From positions 1-64,000 of IMG/VR virus record IMGVR_UViG_3300031951_000041: a stretch of 64,000 bases of DNA, one strand, 5' to 3'. Shown piece by piece: positions 7,154-46,347 of the stretch. The stretch is from a virus. The notes under the pieces were generated by a model. The model made no database searches. It saw only the letters and a program-made list of their open reading frames with translations, and was not told where the DNA came from. How positions within the stretch are numbered: position 1 is the first letter of the stretch; each line of letters begins with the position of its first letter. Made by a program: the position numbers and the translations under genes.

Positions 7154-9664
7154 ATGCTATACTATACCAATATTGTTACTCGCGGCAATTTCGTTTACTT
7201 TCGTGGTGTTCACGACGGTAAACGCATAAATGAAAAAATACCTTTCAAGCCCTCACTCTTCGTTCGTTCAGGTAAAGAGACAAAATATAAATCTCTTACA
7301 GGTGAGAATCTCGAAAGAATAAGATTCGACAGTCTCAACGAAGCTAGAGATTTCATTAAGAATTATAAGGAAGTTAGTAACTTTCCAATCTATGGAAATA
7401 CTAATTTCGTATATCAATTCATTAGCAAACTTTTTCCAGGTATTATAAAGTTTGATACGTCACATATGAAAATTGTGACCATTGATATAGAAACATCTAC
7501 TGAGTATGGCTTTCCTGACCCTCGAACTGCTCAAGAAGAGATCTTGCTGATTACCGTACAAGATTTTAATACCAAGAGATCTTTGTCTTTTGGTTGTAAA
7601 CCCTACTTGTGCAAAACCGAAGATTCAGAATATATTCAATGTAATGATGAATTCGATTTATTACGTAAGTTTATTGACCATCTTAAAAAGGATTATCCAG
7701 ATATTATAACTGGATGGAACGTTCAACTATTCGATATTGCATATTTATCTTCCCGAATTGAACGAGTATTAGGTAAGGATTCACTTAGCGAATGCTCACC
7801 CTGGGGGATGGTCCAGTTTAGAGAAGTCCCATTCTCCAGAGGTAGGACAGTGATGGCTTGCGACTGGCATGGTATCTCAGTGCTGGATTACATGGATCTA
7901 TATAAGAAATTCTCATATAAGGTTCAAGAGTCTTATTCTCTAGATTATATCTCTAAAGAAGAGTTAGGTAAGCAGAAGATCAAACATAACTATGGATCAT
8001 TCAAAGAATTCTATACAAAAGATTGGGAATTATTCGTAGACTATAATATTACAGACGTAAGACTAGTTGATGAACTAGAAGATAAGATGAAGCTTATTAA
8101 TCTTATCTTGACTATGGCGTATGATGCTAAGTGTAACTTTTTAGATATCTTCTCTTCAGTTCGCACCTGGGACTGTATACTGTATAATGCGTTGTTAAAG
8201 CGAGACATCATAGTACATAATCCACCAGGAGTGGACCCGGAAAGTGATAGACAGATTATGGGTGCGTACGTTAAAGAACCTGTACCTGGTCAGTATGATT
8301 GGGTAGTATCTTTTGACGCTACTTCGCTGTATCCTTCCATAATTATGTCCTGGAATATGTCTCCTGAGACATTAATTAACGGTCAAAAGTACTTAGCAGA
8401 TGACGAAAGATCGATACAAAAATTACTCGATAGAGAGTTCATAACTGATAATTTAAAAGAGAAAAACTATGCAATGACTGCTAACGGTCAATGTTTTAGT
8501 AGAGAAAAGAAAGGTATCTTTCCTGAGCTGATTGAATTTTATTTTGCTGAACGGCAGAAAGCTAAGAAGCTCATGTTAGAGATGCAGACGTTGTACGAAG
8601 AAACAAAAGATGAAAAATATCTAAAAGAGGTATCTAGTTTAAATTCTAAACAGATGGCAGCGAAGATTTTGATGAACTCGCTTTACGGTGCCATGGGTAA
8701 CATTTACTTTAGATACTATGATATACGAGTGGCTGAAGGTATTACCATGACCGGTCAATTTATTATTAGATCGGTCGCCAACAAACTTAACGAATTTATT
8801 AATAAGGAGTGTAAAACAAATGGAATTGATTATTCTTTTTATTCTGATACTGATTCTACCTATTTTACCTTGGGTAATTATGTCAAAAATGTCGGCAAAG
8901 ATGGACCAACGACCGGACTTGTGGAACAAATTGACCACTATTGCAGTACCAGAATCGAGCCTACTATCAACGCAACCTGCGACGAAGTCTCAAACTACCT
9001 CAACGCCTACCAAAAGAAAATCAAGTTCAAAAGAGAAGTAATCGCTGATCGGGGTGTTTGGATTGCTAAAAAACGCTATGCATTAAACGTACACAATGCA
9101 GAGGGTGTTGTTTACGACCCACCTAAACTCAAAGTGTTGGGTATGGAGATTGTTCGGTCATCGACACCCGCTCCTGTACGTAAAGCTCTTAAAGAAGCGG
9201 TAAGTATTGTTCTAACTAAAGATGAAGAAACGCTAAGAGCTTTTGTAAATAAACTGGAAAGTGAGTGGAGAAAGTTAGAACCAGAGGAGATATCTTTTCC
9301 ACGAAGTGTTAATGGGTTGAAAGAGTATAGCGATAAGACTAGTATCTTCCGAAAAGGTACTCCGATTCATGTGAGGGGTGCCTTGATATATAATCATTTA
9401 ATACGTAGTAGAGAACTTGAAAAACAATATCAGTTTATTCAAGAAGGTGACAAAATTAAGTTCGTTTATTTGAAGGAGCCGAATCCTTACAGTACCCATG
9501 TAATTACTTTCAATTCGGTTATTCCAAAAGAACTTAGACTTCGTGAATATGTAGATTATGAAACTATGTTTGAAAAGTCGTTTCTAGAACCGCTTAATTC
9601 ATTATTAAAATGTGTTGGGTGGAATATAAAAGAACAAGCCACATTAGAAGGATTATTTGTATGA
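7154..9664 (+). CDS. 43: DNA polymerase gp43 (family B with 3'-5' exonuclease)
   Basis: 836 residues in one uninterrupted ORF (T4: 898). Exonuclease motifs: DIETS with D111/E113, ITGWNVQLFDIAY (Exo II), YNITDVRLVDE (Exo III). Polymerase motifs: A FDATSLYPSI (D388), B K504-x3-NSLYGAMGN, C YSDTDS (D565, D567). All catalytic residues are present. No intein or intron is inserted at motifs A-C, frequent insertion sites. It replicates phage DNA with gp44/62/45, gp32 and the gp41/61 primosome. Stop overlaps the nuclease start as ATGA. Confidence 0.98.
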   Translation: MLYYTNIVTRGNFVYFRGVHDGKRINEKIPFKPSLFVRSGKETKYKSLTGENLERIRFDSLNEARDFIKNYKEVSNFPIYGNTNFVYQFISKLFPGIIKFDTSHMKIVTIDIETSTEYGFPDPRTAQEEILLITVQDFNTKRSLSFGCKPYLCKTEDSEYIQCNDEFDLLRKFIDHLKKDYPDIITGWNVQLFDIAYLSSRIERVLGKDSLSECSPWGMVQFREVPFSRGRTVMACDWHGISVLDYMDLYKKFSYKVQESYSLDYISKEELGKQKIKHNYGSFKEFYTKDWELFVDYNITDVRLVDELEDKMKLINLILTMAYDAKCNFLDIFSSVRTWDCILYNALLKRDIIVHNPPGVDPESDRQIMGAYVKEPVPGQYDWVVSFDATSLYPSIIMSWNMSPETLINGQKYLADDERSIQKLLDREFITDNLKEKNYAMTANGQCFSREKKGIFPELIEFYFAERQKAKKLMLEMQTLYEETKDEKYLKEVSSLNSKQMAAKILMNSLYGAMGNIYFRYYDIRVAEGITMTGQFIIRSVANKLNEFINKECKTNGIDYSFYSDTDSTYFTLGNYVKNVGKDGPTTGLVEQIDHYCSTRIEPTINATCDEVSNYLNAYQKKIKFKREVIADRGVWIAKKRYALNVHNAEGVVYDPPKLKVLGMEIVRSSTPAPVRKALKEAVSIVLTKDEETLRAFVNKLESEWRKLEPEEISFPRSVNGLKEYSDKTSIFRKGTPIHVRGALIYNHLIRSRELEKQYQFIQEGDKIKFVYLKEPNPYSTHVITFNSVIPKELRLREYVDYETMFEKSFLEPLNSLLKCVGWNIKEQATLEGLFV

Positions 9665-32291: not shown

Positions 32292-32537
32292 ATGAAAAAA
32301 ATTTTACGATTCACGGCAGAATGGTGTAAGCCATGTAAGTCGTTAAAGGAAATATTAAATAGAATAGAAACAAGTATTCCTATTGAGGTAATTGATATTG
32401 ACGAGAATATGGAACTAGCTACAGAATATGGAATACGTTCAGTACCAACCATGATTATGATAGAAGATAATACTATCTTAAAAAAGATGGTTGGATTACA
32501 AACAATACAAGAGGTTGAATCTTTTATTCACGATTAA
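32292..32537 (+). CDS. Small thioredoxin/glutaredoxin-like protein
   Basis: 81 residues with active site C12-KPC-15 after FTAEW and a cis-Pro loop SVPTMIM. CKPC instead of CGPC is known in some phage thioredoxins. Likely electron donor for NrdA, given its position. AGAGGAACAT site upstream. Confidence 0.9.
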   Translation: MKKILRFTAEWCKPCKSLKEILNRIETSIPIEVIDIDENMELATEYGIRSVPTMIMIEDNTILKKMVGLQTIQEVESFIHD

Positions 32538-32538
32538 A

Positions 32539-32922
32539 ATGTCATATTCAGAAAAAGTTTTAGATCATTATGAAAATCCACGTAATGTAGGAACTTTTGC
32601 AAAAGAAGTAAAAAGAGTTGGTACGGGTATGGTAGGTGCACCAGCCTGTGGTGACGTTATGAAGTTGCAAATTAAAGTAAGCGAAGAAGGTGTAATAGAA
32701 GATGCGAAATTCAAGACGTACGGTTGTGGTTCGGCGATCGCTTCGTCGTCACTGGTCACTGAATGGGTTAAGGGAAAAACTCTGGCAGAAGCGTCGCAAA
32801 TTAAAAACACTCAAATTGCTACGGAACTTGCATTACCACCAGTCAAAATTCACTGTTCTATTCTTGCAGAAGATGCGATTAAAGCAGCGATAAAAGATTA
32901 TAAAGACAATTATAATGAGTGA
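32539..32922 (+). CDS. iscU: Fe-S cluster scaffold IscU
   Basis: 127 residues, start ATG 32539. Every functional residue of E. coli IscU is in the same position: Cys37 and Asp39 (APACGDV), Cys63 (YGCGSAIAS), LPPVK 99-103 for the HscA chaperone, His105-Cys106. From memory the similarity to beta/gammaproteobacterial IscU is very high along the whole length, unlike typical diverged phage genes. It would receive sulfur from host IscS. Confidence 0.96.
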   Translation: MSYSEKVLDHYENPRNVGTFAKEVKRVGTGMVGAPACGDVMKLQIKVSEEGVIEDAKFKTYGCGSAIASSSLVTEWVKGKTLAEASQIKNTQIATELALPPVKIHCSILAEDAIKAAIKDYKDNYNE

Positions 32923-33640
32923 GTTAATTTACCTGCTTTTGACAACCCATATTACTATTATCTGCGTTACTTTATTTTTACATAGAGGCCAGGCACATAA
33001 AGCATTAATTTTTCATCCCGTTCTATCTCACTTTATGCGCTGGTGGTTATGGATGACTACTGGTATGGTAACTAAAGAATGGGTTGCAGTTCATAGATTA
33101 CATCACCGTTATTGTGATAAAAAAGAGGACCCTCATTCACCTGTTCATTATGGTTTATTAACAGTGTTGTTTAAAGGTGCTTGGTTATATAATAGTGCGG
33201 CTAAAGATAAAGCTATGGTCAACACGTATGGTGTAGGTACACCGGAGGATTGGTTAGAGAAGAATGTCTACAGTAAGTATACTTATCTTGGTGTACTTGT
33301 TTTGCTTTGTATTAATATTATTCTGTTTGGCTTTGTTGGGTTTGGACTTTGGCTGTGTCAAATCGCTTGGATACCGTTTTGGGCAGCTGGTGTGGTCAAC
33401 GGCGTGGGACATAGCTGGGGATATAGAAACGGCGATACGAGAGAGGAATCTCGAAATGTTATGCCGATTGATGTTTTGGTTGGTGGTGAGTTACTTCATA
33501 ATAATCATCATCTTGATCCTAGTAATCCAAAGCTTAGTTTAAAATGGTTTGAGTTTGATATAGGTTGGATGTATTTTAACATCTTCAAATTTTTAAGGTT
33601 AGCAAAGCAAAATGATCACCATCAGCGATTCAGCAGTTAA
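32915..33640 (+). CDS. Membrane fatty acid desaturase
   Basis: 241 residues. Three His boxes: HRGQAH (23-28), HRLHHRYCD (about 62) and HNNHHLDP (about 195), with three to four membrane segments between. Delta-9-type acyl desaturase, diiron, needs electrons from a ferredoxin. T4-like cyanophages also carry desaturases. Overlaps iscU and erpA, so iron-sulfur supply may serve this enzyme's electron donor. Confidence 0.92.
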
Positions 33641-33935
33641 AAAAATTAAAGAAATTATTGAAGAAGAAGACCCTAATCTAAAGCTAAGAATCTTCGTACA
33701 AGGTGGAGGTTGCTCTGGGTTTCAGTATGGATTTACATTAGAAGAACAACCTGCAGCGGAAGATGATTTTATCTTTGAAAGAGATGGAGTAGGTGTTATA
33801 GTAGACTCTATGTCTATGCAATACTTAACAGAAGCAGAAATTGATTACGAAAAATCTATTATGGGTGCAGAGTTTAAAATAAAAAATCCTAACGTCAAAG
33901 CAACGTGTGGATGTGGTTCAAGTTTTACAGTTTAG
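33612..33935 (+). CDS. erpA: Fe-S insertion protein ErpA (A-type carrier)
   Basis: 107 residues. [11 protein letters not shown] (Cys34) and TCGCGSSF (Cys99, Cys101) give the three ligands; NLKLR and QYL segments are ErpA-like rather than IscA-like as I recall. Accepts clusters from IscU and delivers them to target proteins. Overlaps the desaturase by 29 nt. Confidence 0.93.
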
Positions 33936-45279: not shown

Positions 45280-45471
45280 ATGATAATTTGCTCCTGTAGA
45301 AATATACGTGAATCAGACTTTCCAGATAAAGATAAATTAATTTTACGTCTGTATGAGGATGACGCGCAATGTAGGGTTTGTTTAGAGAATATCGATAGGT
45401 ACAAGAGTAAACCGAATACGTTTATGGGTGCTTGGGCTTACTATAGTTTAAACAAAGAGTTTAGTAAATAA
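45280..45471 (+). CDS. Bfd-like small ferredoxin ([2Fe-2S]-binding)
   Basis: 63 residues. IICSCRNI at the start and CRVCLENI near residue 32 give the C-x-C ... C-x2-C spacing of BFD-type domains, which in bacteria release iron from bacterioferritin or accept electrons. The distance between pairs (about 25) is slightly shorter than in Bfd. Fits the iron theme of the phage (Dps-like, IscU, ErpA). Alternative: a plain zinc knuckle. Confidence 0.65.
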   Translation: MIICSCRNIRESDFPDKDKLILRLYEDDAQCRVCLENIDRYKSKPNTFMGAWAYYSLNKEFSK

Positions 45472-45474
45472 ATA
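45467..45474 (+). promoter_or_regulatory. Possible late promoter box AATAAATA
   Basis: AATAAATA overlapping the Bfd-like stop; start point would be about 45480, at the head of the tmRNA acceptor piece. Could be coincidence in an AT-rich region. Confidence 0.4.
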
Positions 45475-45479
45475 TTTTT

Positions 45480-45544
45480 AATTGTTGTATGATGCAAACT
45501 GAAAAGGGTTCTGGACGCGGGTTCGACTCCCGCCTGGTCCACCA
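45480..45544 (+). ncRNA. ssrA: tmRNA acceptor piece (3' half) of a circularly permuted ssrA
   Basis: Contains the tmRNA-type block GGACGCGGGTTCGACTCCCG: T stem GCGGG (45517-45521) / CCCGC (45529-45533), loop TTCGACT, acceptor strand CTGGTCC (45534-45540), discriminator A and encoded CCA 45542-45544. No matching 5' acceptor strand lies upstream; it lies 120 nt downstream at 45665. 5' end of the piece is a guess. Confidence 0.88.
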
Positions 45545-45556
45545 AAAGGAGATTGT

Positions 45557-45748
45557 ATGCCAGTAGATATGTACTACTATACTGAGAGTGAATGGAATCG
45601 TTTAGGGTGTGGACCTCTTCCACCTGAACGAGATATTCGTAATAAGGTAAAGTCTTCTTTTGAGGGGCCAGACATGGTTTCGACAGGGTCAAGAGTAGGG
45701 GAGTGGACAACACGTCAGGCGATCGACGTTAATGAAGCAAATAAGTAA
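45557..45748 (+). CDS. ORF between the two tmRNA halves
   Basis: 63 codons starting with ATG 45557 after a very good AAAAGGAG. The first ~35 codons (MPVDMYYYTESEWNRLGCGP and a charged helix) fill the segment removed from the tmRNA precursor; the rest reads through the 5' half of the tmRNA coding piece, stopping just before the tag. Could be a true peptide gene trapped in the intervening segment, or chance. No family recognised. Confidence 0.4.
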   Translation: MPVDMYYYTESEWNRLGCGPLPPERDIRNKVKSSFEGPDMVSTGSRVGEWTTRQAIDVNEANK

Positions 45749-45832
45749 TCGCAAATGACGAGTACTACGCTCTAGCAGCTTAAATTGCTAGATGGGGTTT
45801 CGGTAGCTGTCCTTATTACCCAATCAGCTACC
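45665..45832 (+). ncRNA. ssrA: tmRNA coding piece (5' half) with tag reading frame
   Basis: GGGCCAG (45665-45671) pairs fully with CTGGTCC of the upstream piece, including a G3-U70 wobble, the alanine identity signal. CATGGTTTCGACAGG is the D-loop region. ACGTC 45712-45716 / GACGT 45725-45729 is part of the first pseudoknot. The tag frame GCA...TAA at 45751-45783 encodes ANDEYYALAA (E. coli: ANDENYALAA). After it: CTAGCA/TGCTAG hairpin and an H-type pseudoknot (45795-45798 with 45818-45821; 45802-45809 with 45825-45832). 3' end approximate. Confidence 0.93.
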
Positions 45833-45854
45833 TTAATGATTTTCAGTACGGTAG

Positions 45855-45862
45855 TATAAATA
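45855..45862 (+). promoter_or_regulatory. Late promoter box TATAAATA upstream of pqqA
   Basis: Exact TATAAATA, 76 nt before the pqqA ATG. Predicted start about 45868. Confidence 0.6.
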
Positions 45863-45867
45863 ATATT

Positions 45868-45938
45868 TTAGTAGATTCACTTCATATGTTCAATAGATAA
45901 TATGGACCGGCAATAGTGCCGCCATAAAGGAGAAAAAT
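45868..45938 (+). promoter_or_regulatory. Leader of pqqA with hairpin
   Basis: About 70 nt containing a CGGC-AATAGT-GCCG hairpin (near 45908-45921) just before the AAAGGAG ribosome binding site. GTTCA and GGAC runs faintly recall glutamine-type riboswitch cores, but the diagnostic GGAAGTAGG is absent. Confidence 0.35.
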
Positions 45939-46013
45939 ATGAAGTGGACTACACCTGCAGCTCAAGATATGCGTTTTGGTTTTGAAATTACCATGTATAT
46001 CGCTAATCGATAA
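45939..46013 (+). CDS. pqqA: PqqA, PQQ precursor peptide
   Basis: 24 residues: MKWTTPAAQDMR then FGFEITMYIANR. The length, K/W-x-x-P-x start, and above all Glu16 and Tyr20 in the E-I-T-M-Y motif are those of bacterial PqqA, whose Glu and Tyr side chains are cross-linked by PqqE to make pyrroloquinoline quinone. AAAGGAG sits 6 nt upstream. No pqqB-E nearby, so the host must supply them. Confidence 0.9.
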   Translation: MKWTTPAAQDMRFGFEITMYIANR

Positions 46014-46016: not shown

Positions 46017-46074
46017 AATTGAGTTGGTAGATCTCTAAAACTACCATCACACAAACACACAAAAGGAGATGTAA

Positions 46075-46347
46075 ATGAGTAATATGTCACCATTCGAGAT
46101 CCGTCTCGAACTTCTTAAGATGGCCAAGGAAATGCTTACTGAAGATTATTACAGTAAGCGAGATCAAGTTTCCAACGACTGGCAAGTTAAAGTAGAAAAC
46201 GCTCGCCACGCCGGTGCAACACCACCTGATCATCCAGGCTTTCCATCATACCCCACTGAAACAGATATTATTAATAAAGCGCAAGCTTTGAATGGTTTTG
46301 TTTCTCAACTTCCAGATGTAAAAGTTACTAAGAAATCTACCGCTTAG
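46075..46347 (+). CDS. Conserved phage protein, 90 aa
   Basis: FEIRLELLKMAKEMLTEDYY then a KRDQVSNDW helix and a Pro-rich turn. Family of small helical proteins in marine phages, often highly expressed; AAAAGGAGATG upstream. Followed by a hairpin. Function unknown. Confidence 0.72.
   Translation: MSNMSPFEIRLELLKMAKEMLTEDYYSKRDQVSNDWQVKVENARHAGATPPDHPGFPSYPTETDIINKAQALNGFVSQLPDVKVTKKSTA

Follow-up and report, generated by a model that had tools for sequence, protein, structure and literature searches.

A PQQ precursor gene between a tmRNA and a phage gene

The DNA analysed here, referred to as the window, is the first 64,000 nucleotides of the IMG/VR virus record IMGVR_UViG_3300031951_000041, a single linear and possibly incomplete record of 117,856 bp (117.9 kb). 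On its plus strand, a short reading frame with a good ribosome binding site lies between a tmRNA gene and a gene for a small phage protein (Table 1), and judged by its sequence it is a real pqqA. The predicted peptide matches over its full length both Pfam PF08042 (38.9 bits, E 7.8e-10, curated cut-off 21.1) and NCBIfam TIGR02107 (39.1 bits, E 4.8e-10, curated cut-off 20), and its Glu-x3-Tyr pair corresponds to the two residues joined by PqqE, in Methylorubrum extorquens numbering (PMC10906245). The preliminary description of this DNA had proposed the PqqA identity and a profile search as a check on it, and both curated models support it. The window contains a single PqqA-like motif, and 50 mononucleotide shuffles contain none; a PHROGs search with the peptide returned no family. 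In comparison to the PqqA of bacterial pqqABCDE operons (PF08042, TIGR02107), the phage copy has the same length, the same W..P....(M/L)RxGFExTMY core and the same Glu/Tyr pair, but it is a stand-alone gene beside a tmRNA, with no pqqB-E.

Table 1. Features at the pqqA locus, in positions of the window
Feature	Positions	Strand	Basis
Two-piece, permuted tmRNA with tag ANDEYYALAA; 64 bp separate its end from pqqA	45452..45874	+	beta_tmRNA 137 bits
TATAAATA, possible T4-type late promoter box	45855..45862	+	no commoner in window than chance
5-bp hairpin CGGCA-ATAG-TGCCG, immediately 5' of the pqqA ribosome binding site	45908..45921	+	folding, by eye
Ribosome binding site AAGGAGA, 5 nt ahead of the pqqA ATG	45927..45933	+	sequence
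pqqA, 24 codons from ATG to TAA; 24-aa PQQ precursor peptide MKWTTPAAQDMRFGFEITMYIANR (Glu16, Tyr20)	45939..46013	+	sequence, profile matches
Stem-loop TGGTAG/CTACCA, between pqqA and the next gene	46025..46046	+	
90-aa phage protein of no known family, neighbour at shared insertion site	46075..46347	+	

As expected of an auxiliary metabolic gene, pqqA is a metabolic gene of host type and the genome around it is genuinely that of a phage: the record encodes a T4-like DNA polymerase, a terminase-like protein, an endolysin and a single-strand DNA binding protein. The polymerase is at best 48% identical to those of Synechococcus cyanomyophages, and a DNA-level search for the nearest isolate phage gave no match. 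The surroundings of pqqA comprise, besides the permuted tmRNA and the 90-aa protein, genes for a GH19 endolysin, an exonuclease, a 2OG-Fe(II) oxygenase, a cell-wall hydrolase and the single-strand DNA binding protein. That the rest of the pathway is missing had been noted before and holds over the whole, possibly incomplete contig, as the TIGR02109 profile found no PqqE across the 117,856 bp and tblastn with the Acinetobacter proteins PqqB to PqqE matched nothing in the window or the three stretches that complete the contig. The search of the record for a PQQ alcohol dehydrogenase was likewise negative.

Two other groups of genes on the contig deserve mention. At 32536-33935 of the window, IscU-like and IscA/SufA-like Fe-S assembly genes lie on both sides of a fatty-acid desaturase gene; PqqE is an Fe-S enzyme, and a tie between the two would be speculation. 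Outside the window (7798-9494 of the third further stretch) are a FolE-like gene and a radical-SAM QueE-like gene, the latter with a match below the Pfam cut-off, possibly for queuosine/preQ0 synthesis.

We examined 80 IMG/VR loci, collected independently of pqqA, that encode a protein related to the 90-aa neighbour. Only 11 of them have pqqA nearby (137-166 bp upstream of the neighbour gene in 10), indicating that pqqA is optional in the window phage's group. In relatives without pqqA, the interval between the tmRNA and the 90-aa gene varies from none to several kilobases and therefore looks like a cargo site. Among the listed matches of the pattern search described below, 25 of 120 stretches contain a tmRNA, and about half of these 25 have the start of pqqA 46-80 bp beyond the tmRNA on the same strand, an arrangement shared with the window; other copies from this set are located among tRNAs, and the pqqA of the cultured phage Melnitz adjoins tRNA-Leu. 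As many of these loci belong to related T4-like phages, the tmRNA- and tRNA-linked cases are not independent events.

Relatives with pqqA at the same site have differing stems just 5' of the ribosome binding site (CGGCA/TGCCG, TAGCAA/TTGCTA, CAGG/CCTG and GCAGAA/TTCTGC, identified by eye). The 55 bases upstream of pqqA (n=112) fold better than shuffles, with a mean z of -1.25 and 51% below -1, against -0.47 and 25% for regions upstream of other genes in the same loci, a descriptive comparison uncorrected for relatedness and made without a significance test. This persistent stem is possibly an mRNA stabiliser or a terminator. TATAAATA occurs six times in the window, against 12 expected by chance; TATAAATA or ATAAATAT is nevertheless located in a few upstream gaps. 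An antisense Rfam match to the S15 leader in the pqqA region was rejected as a chance hit, being below threshold (21.5 versus 39.5 bits).

Solo pqqA in uncultured viruses and cultured methylophages

A degenerate DNA pattern for G-F-E-(I/V/M)-T-M-Y...N-R matched at least 120 stretches in IMG/VR, and no pqqB-E lies near pqqA in the examined stretches of the 120 matches listed. Whole records were analysed for 43 pqqA-bearing phages (the window record, 36 others from IMG/VR and six from a phage collection), ranging from 15 to 365 kb. None of the 43 encodes a PQQ alcohol or methanol dehydrogenase or a PqqE above the cut-off, and six have radical-SAM matches below the PqqE cut-off. A strong match to the window phage's terminase-like protein was found in nine records, with an identity of at least 44% in six of those nine, window record included; the absence of this protein is no proof of a different group, because many records are fragments. 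Going by their sequences, the pqqA-bearing records represent several phage groups.

In the phage collection, tblastn located PqqA in 12 records, of which 10 were kept: Melnitz (four isolates), P19250A, Venkman, MEP301, MEP401, MEP402 and the uncultured ctXG6705. Leaving ctXG6705 aside, these are nine complete genomes of cultured methylophages, each with a solo pqqA. The remaining two, contigs named 'Acinetobacter phage MD-2021a', were excluded as bacterial DNA, because the contig inspected (CAKLQF020000010.1) contains a full pqqABCDE operon amid ordinary bacterial genes.

As its members were found through their PqqA, this list of ten alone is not a census. The literature up to 2023 provides a list independent of the PqqA search. 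Venkman, MEP301 and Melnitz, from three distinct viral groups, were the sole OM43 phage isolates reported before a study that added MEP401/402 and the partial genome HIM624-A (PMC10580990), and Venkman has been grouped with the freshwater phage P19250A (PMC8163748). All complete genomes on this list have pqqA, and they span at least four viral groups; the gene recurs in unrelated phages. No PqqA match was obtained by tblastn for HTVC008M, a phage of SAR11 that is in the same phage collection and is related to Melnitz (PMC9004378). The solo pqqA is shared between the window phage and all the named phages, ctXG6705 included, but theirs encode peptides of the Methylophilaceae type. The T4-like Melnitz is distantly related to the window phage, and Venkman, P19250A, MEP301, MEP401, MEP402 and ctXG6705 show no clear terminase relationship to it.

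Peptide type and the probable host

The bacterial PqqAs closest to the window peptide share 22 of its 24 residues (92%); they belong to Burkholderiales from fresh water, Comamonadaceae among them, and are mostly located inside pqqABCDE operons; five of the six examined genomes with such a PqqA have one pqqA each. The search query was an alignment with the window peptide as first row and hand-composed variants as several of the others, and matches were confirmed against the window-peptide row; a hand-composed generic non-methylotroph PqqA served as control query. The window peptide is of the FEITMYIANR type and falls outside the Methylophilaceae type as we define it (an unpublished criterion of our own), whereas peptides of cultured methylophages follow FEVTMY(V/I)(M/L)(N/T)(K/R), e.g. 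FEVTMYVMNK, and small methylotroph-like genomes encode this or similar peptides too. Small AT-rich genomes of the same order, probably of the Methylopumilus/OM43 kind judging by size and composition, have three dispersed copies of MWTTPAATEMRFGFEVTMYVMNK, which is identical to the P19250A peptide. Some genomes of this order contain pqqA in 3-7 scattered copies that are nearly identical and mostly do not lie beside pqqB.

The preliminary description had assumed a methylotrophic host. Neither the nearest bacterial PqqAs nor the different peptide type of the cultured methylophages supports this, and a freshwater Burkholderiales host appears more likely than an obligate methylotroph on these sequence comparisons. 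When each phage peptide was paired with its nearest bacterial neighbour, in a bacterial sample partly picked for likeness to the window peptide, the bacterial partner was also FEI for 36 of the 41 FEI-type phage peptides and also FEV for all 27 of the FEV type. Of 68 distinct phage peptides, 44 differ from a sampled bacterial PqqA by no more than two residues, and five are identical to one. The type of PqqA peptide may thus be a hint to the host. The phage IscU-like protein matches a Burkholderiaceae MAG at 84% and small methylotroph-like genomes at 79-81%. The phage tmRNA is permuted; a one-piece tmRNA is present in the candidate hosts checked, Burkholderiales and methylotroph-like genomes alike.

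It had also been suggested that the phage helps PQQ-dependent energy metabolism. PQQ alcohol dehydrogenases score above the cut-off in some candidate Burkholderiales genomes and not in others, and because some candidate hosts have these enzymes such help is plausible without obligate methylotrophy, for which we see no support.

Precursor supply and its alternatives

Since the peptide's second half is set by the search pattern, selection could be measured only on the 11 codons before it, using 100 distinct DNA sequences. There, pN is 0.20 and pS 0.52, a ratio of 0.39 (subsample range 0.35-0.45) that pools distant sequences and is not tree-based, compared with 0.68-1.45 in the other five frames of the same region. 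Trp, Pro and Arg are invariant in this first half; the invariance of Glu and Tyr in the IMG/VR set is uninformative, being built into the pattern. The contrast between frames is clear, and phage PqqA is under purifying selection.

PqqA is consumed in PQQ synthesis, one peptide per PQQ, while the enzymes PqqB-E turn over, which would explain why the phage carries the consumable part alone. During infection, the phage would make extra PqqA, which host PqqD/PqqE would cross-link at Glu16-Tyr20 and host proteases, PqqB and PqqC would complete into PQQ, so that PQQ-dependent alcohol or methanol dehydrogenases of the host would be kept supplied during phage replication. We consider it probable that phage PqqA is an auxiliary metabolic gene acting in this way, by substrate supply to a host pathway. 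The idea of extra precursor, already present in the preliminary description, gains support. The gene and its family, the missing pathway, the purifying selection, the recurrence in unrelated phages and the several solo pqqA copies of some bacterial genomes are results of the analysis, and expression of pqqA, its processing by host enzymes, a benefit to the phage and a freshwater Burkholderiales host are our inferences.

Work on bacteria bears on whether precursor could be limiting. PqqA protein was found at ~20x the level of PqqC or PqqE (PMC2294125), Methylophilaceae have 3-12 pqqA copies and usually one set of the other pqq genes (PMC4109929), and no OM43 transcript was ever more abundant than that of xoxF (PMC5120137); for these reasons pqqA alone would be the cheapest route to more PQQ capacity, if precursor is limiting. 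In Acetobacter, however, overexpression of pqqAB raised PQQ by a modest 29%, compared with eightfold for the whole cluster (PMC7936290), suggesting that precursor may not be limiting. In Methylorubrum extorquens, mutants in pqqA still have 10-20% of the PQQ (PMC2294125). The dispersed solo pqqA genes of Methylophilaceae (PMC4109929, PMC9851590) are likewise extra precursor genes apart from the other pqq genes and imply dosage, but they are chromosomal and encode FEVTMY... peptides.

Purifying selection would be equally compatible with another function that depends on the PqqA sequence, e.g. titration of PqqD/PqqE. A decoy occupying these host proteins would lower PQQ synthesis and shut down PQQ-dependent respiration or redirect carbon, and as a substrate mimic it would likewise retain the PqqA sequence and need no other pathway gene. 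We regard this as improbable: loss of the cross-linked residues would be expected at least occasionally in a decoy, whereas plain tblastn yielded isolate copies that all retain Glu and Tyr, and phage peptides are near-identical to bacterial substrates. Still less credible is a host gene acquired by chance and carried along without benefit in a tRNA/tmRNA cargo region, even though pqqA is short, lies in such regions and is patchy among relatives: the pN/pS result already weakens this reading, and the retained ribosome binding site and the presence in several unrelated phage groups also speak against it. The least probable alternative is a different phage job, e.g. a regulatory micropeptide that only resembles PqqA. 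In its favour, the link between PqqA and PQQ in phages is drawn from sequence, but the full-length match to an equivalog model and the identity of some phage peptides to bacterial PqqAs speak against it.

Phage PqqA as such is already known. The part of the account by Coutinho et al. 2020 available to us describes PqqA in the Lake Baikal virus population VP_266 and proposes a cofactor role, i.e. help to host PQQ metabolism as suggested here; VP_266 additionally has a methanol dehydrogenase, unlike the 43 pqqA-bearing records above, and neither a wider distribution nor a selection test is reported in that part (PMC7678222). Our literature search, which covered few subscription journals, found no other report of phage PqqA. 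This analysis adds the breadth of the distribution, the missing dehydrogenase, the finding that annotation overlooked pqqA in cultured phages, the measurement of selection, the link to the tmRNA and a revised view of the host.

If supply of precursor is indeed the function, phages would tune methanol and alcohol oxidation in water through a consumed precursor peptide rather than an enzyme, many phages may top up the PQQ supply of their hosts, and PqqA supply would appear to limit PQQ during infection. A broader reading, on which we are evenly divided, is that phages of bacteria dependent on PQQ enzymes repeatedly and independently took only the consumable part of the pathway, in many cases just behind a phage tmRNA or between tRNAs, precursor supply being a general strategy missed by annotation because the gene has merely 23-24 codons. 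On a practical matter, cultured phage-host pairs with pqqA exist, namely OM43 with Melnitz, Venkman, MEP301 and MEP401/402, and IMCC19250 with P19250A. PQQ is not mentioned in the papers on MEP301, Venkman and MEP401/402, and the Melnitz paper mentions it solely as a medium component, at 1 nM in the OM43 medium (PMC9004378). Gene callers overlook this auxiliary gene in many viral genomes. It is annotated in none of the 10 phage records: P19250A, Venkman, MEP301, MEP401 and MEP402 have no feature at its position, and in Melnitz (MZ577097.1, 76134-76205) and ctXG6705 (MW202481.1, 2122-2187) it lies under an antisense 'hypothetical protein' call.
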